Source of the DNA: Pigmentibacter sp. JX0631
GTDB lineage: Bacteria > Bdellovibrionota_B > Oligoflexia > Silvanigrellales > Silvanigrellaceae
Length of the DNA stretch: 64,000 nt
Assembly: GCF_029873255.1 (NCBI RefSeq)
Contig: NZ_CP123622.1
Coordinates: 1,762,501-1,826,500 of the forward strand
Direction of reading: 5' to 3'
A program made the position numbers and the translations under genes. Positions within the stretch are counted from its first letter, which is position 1, and each line of letters opens with the position of its first letter. Shown here piece after piece: positions 51,247-53,465 of the stretch. The notes beneath the pieces are model-generated. The model was not told the origin of the DNA, did no database searches, and saw only the letters and a list, made by a program, of their open reading frames with translations.

Positions 51247-52056
51247 TCACATATTTTGCACACTTTTAATATTTTCAGCAAGTTCTTTAGAATATCGCTT
51301 TTCTTCATTTTTACCGTCTACTTCTGGTAAGGTTTGAGCTTTTTTAAACAATTCTAAAGCAATTGTTTTATCTCCAGATTTTTTCTTCAAAATTCCAAGA
51401 TACATTGTATTTAAGCGAAACTCCGGACAAGTTTGAATTGCCTGATTAAAATAATCTTCAGCAATTTTTTTGTCTCCAAAAGAAATTAATCCTCCGGGAA
51501 CTTCCTGATAATATCTGCCAAGAATCCTTAATGGACCACACCATTGGTATTTTGGGTCAATCTTTGCTGCTTCAAGCAAAGCATCTCTTCCTGGTTTTGC
51601 GTTACTTAAAGCAGAGAAAATTCCTTTCGATAGACCATAAGACCCTAAATTAATTGCATACCAGTAGTATCCTTCAACCTTCTTAGGTTCCAATTCTTTT
51701 GCTATTTTTCCTGCTTCGTATCCATATTTAAATAATTTTATTTTATCTAATTTTGGAGTAGCTTCAGAAAGAGTAAAATTTCCATAAAAATAAACTAATC
51801 TAGCTACTTTCCATGCTATGTTAAATTCTTTTGGGATTGGAGTTTCTTTACTGAGGAAAAGATAAATTTGATTTTCACCGTCAGTGTTTTCTCTATTATT
51901 CCAAAGAGAGTCTAAAAATTTTTCAGAAATTAAATCTTGAGCTTCATTATTTACTATTTCTTTATTAGTAGATTTTTCATCACTATGTGAAGGAAAAACA
52001 ATAAATAAAGATACGAATAATAAAAAAAATCTTTTAATGAATTTATTTTTTAACAT
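51247..52056 (-). CDS. TatT-like TRAP-transporter component (TPR lipid-binding type)
   Basis: A 269-residue exported protein (signal 1-25, ending near PSHS-D). The body is helical repeats of tetratricopeptide kind, with VEGYYWYAINLGSYG, PKYQWCGPLRILGRYYQEVPGG and a TPR end (GDKTIALELFKKAQ), matching the TatT family associated with TRAP transporters in spirochetes and others. No TRAP permease or TatP gene is adjacent, so it may act alone. The ribosome site lies in an 11-bp hairpin (52061-52112). Confidence 0.72.
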   Translation of the reverse strand: MLKNKFIKRFFLLFVSLFIVFPSHSDEKSTNKEIVNNEAQDLISEKFLDSLWNNRENTDGENQIYLFLSKETPIPKEFNIAWKVARLVYFYGNFTLSEATPKLDKIKLFKYGYEAGKIAKELEPKKVEGYYWYAINLGSYGLSKGIFSALSNAKPGRDALLEAAKIDPKYQWCGPLRILGRYYQEVPGGLISFGDKKIAEDYFNQAIQTCPEFRLNTMYLGILKKKSGDKTIALELFKKAQTLPEVDGKNEEKRYSKELAENIKSVQNM

Positions 52057-52060
52057 ATGT

Positions 52061-52112
52061 TCTCCTAAAAACTTCTAATCATATGCGGTTAAGACTATAT
52101 TTTTTTAGGAGA
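52061..52112 (-). promoter_or_regulatory. Hairpin sequestering the ribosome site of the TatT-like gene
   Basis: In the transcript TCTCCTAAAAA (complement of 52102-52112) can pair perfectly with TTTTTAGGAGA (complement of 52061-52071) across ~30 nt. The downstream arm contains the AGGAG Shine-Dalgarno 4 nt before the ATG at 52056. Formation of the stem should block translation, so this is a candidate translational switch or RNA thermometer. Confidence 0.5.
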
Positions 52113-53406: not shown

Positions 53407-53465
53407 ATTGTATTTCCTTTCATATCAACCGCTGCAGAAGGGTTAACTTTAATTTATTAAAGGTA

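Follow-up and report, generated by a model that had tools for sequence, protein, structure and literature searches.

RNA thermometers of the ROSE and fourU types sequester the Shine–Dalgarno (SD) sequence in a hairpin. The transposase genes of IS10 and IS50 are protected from outside transcription by an RNA structure that hides the ribosome-binding site, and in the classic anatomy of translational coupling the 5′ arm of an SD hairpin lies over the stop codon of the upstream gene. A further arrangement is that of gene e of phage T4, for which a review describes long early transcripts that fold and are poorly translated, and late transcripts that are devoid of the 5′ part of the structure. According to the same review, for gene e and I-TevI the long early transcript hides the SD and the transcripts from an adjacent late promoter are well translated; in related phages a late promoter is located within the region encoding the 5′ strand of the structure (PMC3014915). 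The Salmonella ugtS-ugtL operon is described as giving rise to two mRNAs, one of which alone permits translation of a given gene (PMC8896665).

The locus described in this work lies in a stretch of DNA of 64,000 nucleotides, which we call the window, from a genome of 3.65 Mb assembled as one contig. The features of importance, in the order in which they would be transcribed, are the following.

53406-52159, minus strand: metK (S-adenosylmethionine synthetase), separated by 102 nt from the TPR gene downstream and the presumed source of read-through RNA
52120-52092, minus strand: promoter-like block TTTACA-N15-TATAGTCT, predicted from conservation and a sigma-70-like match
52120-52115, minus strand: -35-like element TTTACA
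52112-52102, minus strand: 5′ arm of the hairpin, UCUCCUAAAAA, between the -35-like and -10-like elements
52101-52072, minus strand: hairpin loop of 30 nt; both the predicted start site and the TATAGTCT portion of the block fall within it
52097-52092, minus strand: -10-like element TAGTCT at a spacing of 17 nt (alternative TATAGT at 15)
52085, minus strand: predicted transcription start, 7 nt past the -10-like element and 17 nt beyond the end of the 5′ arm
52071-52061, minus strand: 3′ arm of the hairpin, UUUUUAGGAGA, which contains AGGAG
52066-52062, minus strand: SD core AGGAG within the 3′ arm, the ATG following 5 nt further on
51247-52056, minus strand: TPR gene ("TatT-like", tatT), 269 aa, ATG at 52056-52054, the gene that the hairpin would control

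The first-pass annotation had placed the AGGAG in one arm of a perfect 11-bp inverted repeat, and this was confirmed. The stretches 52061-52071 and 52102-52112 of the minus strand form 11 Watson–Crick pairs across a loop of 30 nt, such that the leader reads UCUCCUAAAAA, loop, UUUUUAGGAGA, ACAU and the ATG at 52056. The same palindrome appears when the plus strand, the complement of the mRNA, is folded (z -1.99; 7 of 200 shuffles equally stable). A five-codon ORF (MIRSF; 52065-52082, minus strand) spans the hairpin loop and the 3′ arm, with its stop codon overlapping the SD. Its frame is retained in L002, and by eye there is none at that place in L003-L007 (L001 designates the leader of the window, and L002-L007 those of other members of the genus).

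The product of the TPR gene has a hydrophobic N-terminus, as read from the sequence, and its matches to the Pfam TPR families are weak and below the cut-off. A relative is encoded in all 14 of the family genomes examined. NCBIfam BstC was matched by 14 of 14 aligned family members at E≤0.1, the window's protein scoring 33 bits against a cut-off of 350, and the family profile matches the solved structure of BstC (7t1s, E 3.8e-13). No molecule named TatT is found among the matches listed for this profile (60 of 89), so that the label "TatT-like", under which the gene was first described, is acceptable as a loose name and is unconfirmed as an assignment. Upstream of metK lies rnpB. The metK leader carries GCAGCGGTTGATATGAAAGGAAA (53413-53435, minus strand); this sequence is the same in L060-L066, seven members of the genus, and is missing from L067. 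This leader gave no Rfam match at the gathering score, and its five sub-threshold matches at E≤10 include no thermometer or riboswitch family.

An SD helix that covers at least 3 SD bases is present in seven of the eight genus genomes examined, with these arms (5′/3′).

L001 and L002: UCUCCUAAAAA / UUUUUAGGAGA, a common 11-bp stem
L003: UCUGCCAG / CUGGCAGG
L004: CCCUAUCA / UGGUAGGG
L007: CCCUAUCGA / UCGAUAGGG
L005 and L006: AUAACCUCUU / AGGAGGUUAU

L004 and L007 have arm letters in common, and hence the set amounts to about four independent lineages. Between lineages the arm letters, the register and most of the loop differ, and the occlusion of the SD is kept. Covariation in homologues had been proposed as a check on the hairpin, and SD occlusion is retained across the genus with changed arm sequences. 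The same arrangement built from different letters in related bacteria suggests that it has been selected. The eighth and distant genus member (L013) has no comparable SD helix, and its nearest upstream ORF is oppositely oriented. A first contig scan for relatives returned none; a second, which made use of the alignment, returned 15 loci, seven of them already in the set. Among the eight further loci, helices were computed for L080 and L083, and the distant L015-L018 and L087-L092 were excluded. By a fixed-position rule, unlike the rule used elsewhere, L011 gave a G-U-rich SD helix of -13.8 and L014 one of -12.1, the helices of these two being only G-U-rich or distant; by the same rule L012, L013, L080 and L083 gave none that is strong (-8.1 or weaker).

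The 5′ arm coincides with a block of the leader that resembles a promoter. The pattern TTTAC[A/T]-N15-TATAnnCT, with an A run preceding TATA, is common to the leaders. When five lineages were aligned with MAFFT without an anchor, 17 of the 29 block columns were invariant versus 15 of the 100 others, and seven of these 15 are letters of the SD and the start codon. When the alignment was anchored on the pattern, the block had 17 invariant columns out of 29 and the flanks had 5 out of 66. The search pattern itself fixed nine of these 17, and without the fixed columns the comparison becomes 8 of 20 versus 5 of 66 (Fisher p 0.0014). Scored with a sigma-70 matrix, the block is the best match of its own leader in all seven cases, reading TTTAC[A/T]-N17-TAnnCT in six and TTTACA-N15-TATAAT in L003. 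The score itself is ordinary, as control leaders reach it in 33/160, 7/35, 8/34, 8/36 and 13/27 cases. It is therefore conservation and spacing, rather than the score, that speak for a promoter. Consensus promoter scans of five leaders did not list the block in any of them; they list other candidates upstream, such as a 10/12 site inside the upstream gene in L006, and RNA from these would carry the hairpin. When the spacing of -35/-10-like pairs was tested crudely across intergenic DNA, no spacing was enriched, and the regions upstream of rnpB and tmRNA, taken as promoter yardsticks, revealed no clear consensus by eye. Exact matches to TTTACA-N5-9-AAAAAATATA occur once in the genome, at this leader.

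In L001 and L002 the 5′ arm fills the spacer of the block, and in L003-L007 it covers the -10 region and the bases that follow. As judged from these sequences, the pairing partner of the SD has shifted within the predicted block with the outcome unchanged. In all seven leaders the 5′ arm ends before the predicted +1, by 17 nt in L001 and L002 and by 2-4 nt in L003-L007. The first-pass annotation had held that the stem would never form if transcription began downstream of the upstream arm. The gene's own putative promoter is predicted from the sequence to have just such a start, yet the stem could still form in RNA entering from metK.

We compared the computed cost of opening the SD in the two kinds of RNA. 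At 37 °C it is 8.0-13.2 kcal/mol in the read-through RNA versus 0.9-3.0 kcal/mol in the RNA from the predicted start, the latter being about that of the control medians (2.1-3.2 kcal/mol). When the predicted start was moved by -6 to +2 nt, the cost was still 0.8-4.1 kcal/mol in the five lineages. In L007 the base-wise accessibility of the SD is no higher in the gene's own transcript (0.06 vs 0.17), and the opening cost falls from 11.2 to 2.2 kcal/mol. A scan of the metK-tatT gap in the window for intrinsic terminators found no terminator-like site, nor did one of the corresponding gap in L003, L004, L006 and L007. These scans are weak, as only 0.1 sites would be expected by chance per short region, and they covered the leaders other than L002 and L005.

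Since the hairpin would be absent from the gene's own RNA, it could matter only in RNA that enters from upstream. Taken together with the lack of a terminator-like site in the scanned gaps, this leads us to read the hairpin as a read-through silencer of the T4 gene e/I-TevI type, to which we assign a probability of about 0.58. In favor of this reading we also count the persistence of block and hairpin in L005 and L006, where a transposase gene now stands upstream, and the lack of a comparable helix in L013, where the nearest ORF upstream runs in the opposite direction. The tatT gene would have its own predicted promoter in the metK-tatT gap, and the promoter DNA would double as the template of the 5′ arm, this arm being located upstream of the start site. 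RNA begun at that promoter would be without the 5′ arm and its SD would be open. RNA running in from metK would possess both arms, fold, and hide the SD. The output of the TPR protein would then follow its own promoter and not the transcription of metK. The active promoter, the start of the RNA, the read-through RNA and the block to translation are all predicted elements of this scheme. The ordinary promoter score lowered our confidence in it from 0.62 to 0.58 and slightly raised that in a regulated switch.

Such a switch, responsive to temperature, a ligand, a protein or a small RNA, would operate in a main transcript that starts upstream of the 5′ arm. We consider it unlikely, albeit deserving of some weight. 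SD occlusion is conserved through the rewiring, a thermometer needs no conserved letters, and candidates for a promoter exist further upstream, the score of the block being ordinary; on the other hand, the 5′ arm is situated inside the conserved promoter-like block. The annotation had proposed an RNA thermometer or relief by a trans-acting factor, and support was obtained for neither. The SD does lie in a hairpin, as in a thermometer, but the computed stability is not marginal within the growth range: freeing the SD costs 13.2 kcal/mol at 37 °C and 15.6 at 25 °C, values that are high for a thermal switch, and the mean unpaired fraction of the SD was computed as 0.00 at both of these temperatures. 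The arms, the register and most of the loop are unconserved between lineages, which argues against a bound ligand or protein as the relieving factor. Rfam at the gathering score matched RNase P RNA only across the window, leaving the leader without a match. At E≤10 the leader yielded six sub-threshold matches, far below the cut-offs, with no thermometer or riboswitch family among them. A SAM or other riboswitch beside metK was considered and set aside, as there was no match to a riboswitch family and no conserved aptamer.

A different genus of the family brings in the possibility of translational coupling. In L008, L009 and L010, 23-24 nt separate the end of metK (its identity confirmed by Pfam) from the start codon of the TPR gene, and a hairpin of 10-13 bp with a 6-nt loop covers SD bases, its 5′ arm including the metK stop codon. 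The helices are equalled in 36, 4 and 45 of 2000 shuffles, respectively, the shuffle being the only comparison made for them.

L008 2277-2301: SD hairpin in the metK-TPR gap
L009 2340-2365: SD hairpin in the metK-TPR gap
L010 1272-1297: SD hairpin in the metK-TPR gap

By analogy with the classic anatomy, the hairpin in these three would fit translational coupling. Extended to the window, the same idea would have the ribosomes that finish metK melt the stem, with translation of tatT dependent on them. We regard this as improbable. Despite the precedent of the stop codon within the 5′ arm in L008-L010, the 5′ arm in the window starts 46 nt past the metK stop, probably too far for direct opening. 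Moreover, the next gene upstream in L005 and L006, from Spirobacillus-like genomes, is a transposase gene, and the block and the hairpin are retained in both.

L005 315-1226: PDDEXK_2-family transposase gene, directly upstream of the TPR gene
L006 2503-3426: PDDEXK_2-family transposase gene, directly upstream of the TPR gene

Further upstream in G007, rnpB is followed by what resembles the start of metK, which suggests that the transposase gene was inserted between metK and the TPR gene.

A purine-rich SD in an AT-rich leader often meets its complement, and chance pairing had to be weighed against this background. The comparisons make it a very improbable account. When only the sequence upstream of the SD was shuffled, a helix equal to or better than that of the window arose in 9 of 2000 shuffles. 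For the other leaders the corresponding counts were 3 (L002), 61 (L003, with an overlap of 3 bases), 51 (L004), 4 (L007), 27 (L005) and 29 (L006), and the 51-61 of some lineages lend chance a measure of support, as does the recurrence of single helices this strong in 1 of 160 SD-bearing controls of the own genome and 1 of 27 in G007. Controls were drawn from the output of a home-made gene finder (360, 80, 80, 70 and 71 genes in G000, G006, G004, G005 and G007), those with an SD match numbering 161, 35, 34, 36 and 27; removal of the TPR gene itself reduced the G000 set from 161 to 160, and the control start codons were picked partly by the presence of an SD. The single-helix measure depends on the overlap demanded. 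The L003 helix covers 3 of 5 SD bases, and if four are required 14 of 35 controls are equally good; if all five are required, L007 (3 of 34 controls) and L004 (2 of 36) lose their lead. The clearest result comes from the SD-opening energy, a folding measure that is independent of the helix rule and, as with all energies computed here, refers to naked RNA. In a read-through context of 190 nt, the cost was 13.2 kcal/mol in L001, 8.0 in L003, 11.2 in L007, 12.9 in L004 and 11.7 in L006. The 160 controls of the own genome have a median of 2.4 and a maximum of 9.1 kcal/mol. The same-genome cost was reached by 0/160 controls for L001, 0/35 for L003, 0/34 for L007, 0/36 for L004 and 0/27 for L006, that is by none of the 292 control genes of the five genomes pooled. 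When the upstream regions and SDs of the five lineages were permuted, the true within-genome sum was better than that of every other arrangement among the 120 permutations. A single mismatched pair, the L006 upstream region with the L004 SD (-20.0), nevertheless surpasses both corresponding true pairs. The sequestration of the SD is non-random, and the initial judgment that so exact a sequestration is unlikely to be due to chance was borne out by the shuffles and by the own-genome and pooled controls.

Strong SD helices at other genes of these genomes merit a separate description. The strongest of the own-genome sample, GAAAGCCTCT/GGAGGTTTTC (L023 16186-16247), lies upstream of a VapE-like gene. 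Its 5′ arm by eye nearly matches a second loop partner, AGAAGCTTTC, which would allow two mutually exclusive hairpins. By Pfam, the three own-genome genes that rank next in strength of the SD helix are mobile or toxin-like, as is the top gene of G007; the scan covered these four of the 14 other listed genes.

L023 16247-17581: VapE-like
L035 7575-8141: resolvase
L035 1006-2724: Mu-type transposase
L056 10717-12420: ParB-nuclease/PTP protein

Least plausible of the alternatives, and very improbable, is that a repressor acting at the promoter binds the inverted repeat as its DNA operator, with an incidental overlap of the SD: the repeat does overlap the promoter-like block, but the arm letters vary by lineage, in every lineage the 3′ arm takes in some or all of the SD, and a protein site would tend to preserve its letters.

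Returning to the reading as a read-through silencer, we note a broader proposition, offered as a speculation that is rather unlikely to hold. The chromosomes of this family may use anti-SD arms embedded in promoters as standing insulation. On this proposition, when a gene gains its own promoter within an operon, the promoter sequence would evolve to silence the read-through RNA and would take the place of an earlier coupling hairpin formed at the stop codon of the gene upstream; the arms would be re-invented repeatedly as the functions of promoter and SD are kept. If the silencer reading is true, one DNA stretch would serve as both promoter and antisense arm, translation control rather than a terminator would insulate an operon gene from its neighbor, and co-directional genes with no terminator between them need not be co-expressed. 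The rewired arms would represent a natural mutation series for the joint evolution of promoter sequence and RNA folding.

Among the known systems, the ROSE and fourU thermometers likewise have the SD inside a hairpin. The stem here is a perfect 11 bp of high computed stability, without an Rfam match at the gathering score, and its 5′ arm is probably absent from the gene's own RNA. The locus differs from ugtS-ugtL in that the short mRNA is the one without the ribosome-binding site there, whereas it is the long RNA that would hide the site here. As in IS10 and IS50, the hairpin would form only in RNA that comes from outside, the gene here being a conserved cellular gene in contrast to one of a mobile element. 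With T4 gene e the comparison is as follows. The long transcript is computed to pair the SD in a stable helix, with an opening cost (13.2 kcal/mol) above that of all 160 own-genome controls; a nearby promoter is predicted from the conserved block, with the 5′ arm upstream of the predicted +1, the matrix score being ordinary, the spacing test showing no enrichment and the consensus scans not listing the block; and upstream transcription may be supplied by metK, which is on the same strand across a 102-nt gap in which no terminator-like site was found. The differences are the phage timing, the special late sigma factor and the experimental support in T4, compared to a chromosomal metK-tatT gap and a sigma-70-like block read from sequence. 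By this analogy the design is the same as that of T4 gene e, with membership in the class unproven. The setting, between housekeeping genes of the cell and rewired several times, is of interest in its own right, and if the reading is true, it would constitute a cellular and genus-wide case of a control that is best known from phage T4.
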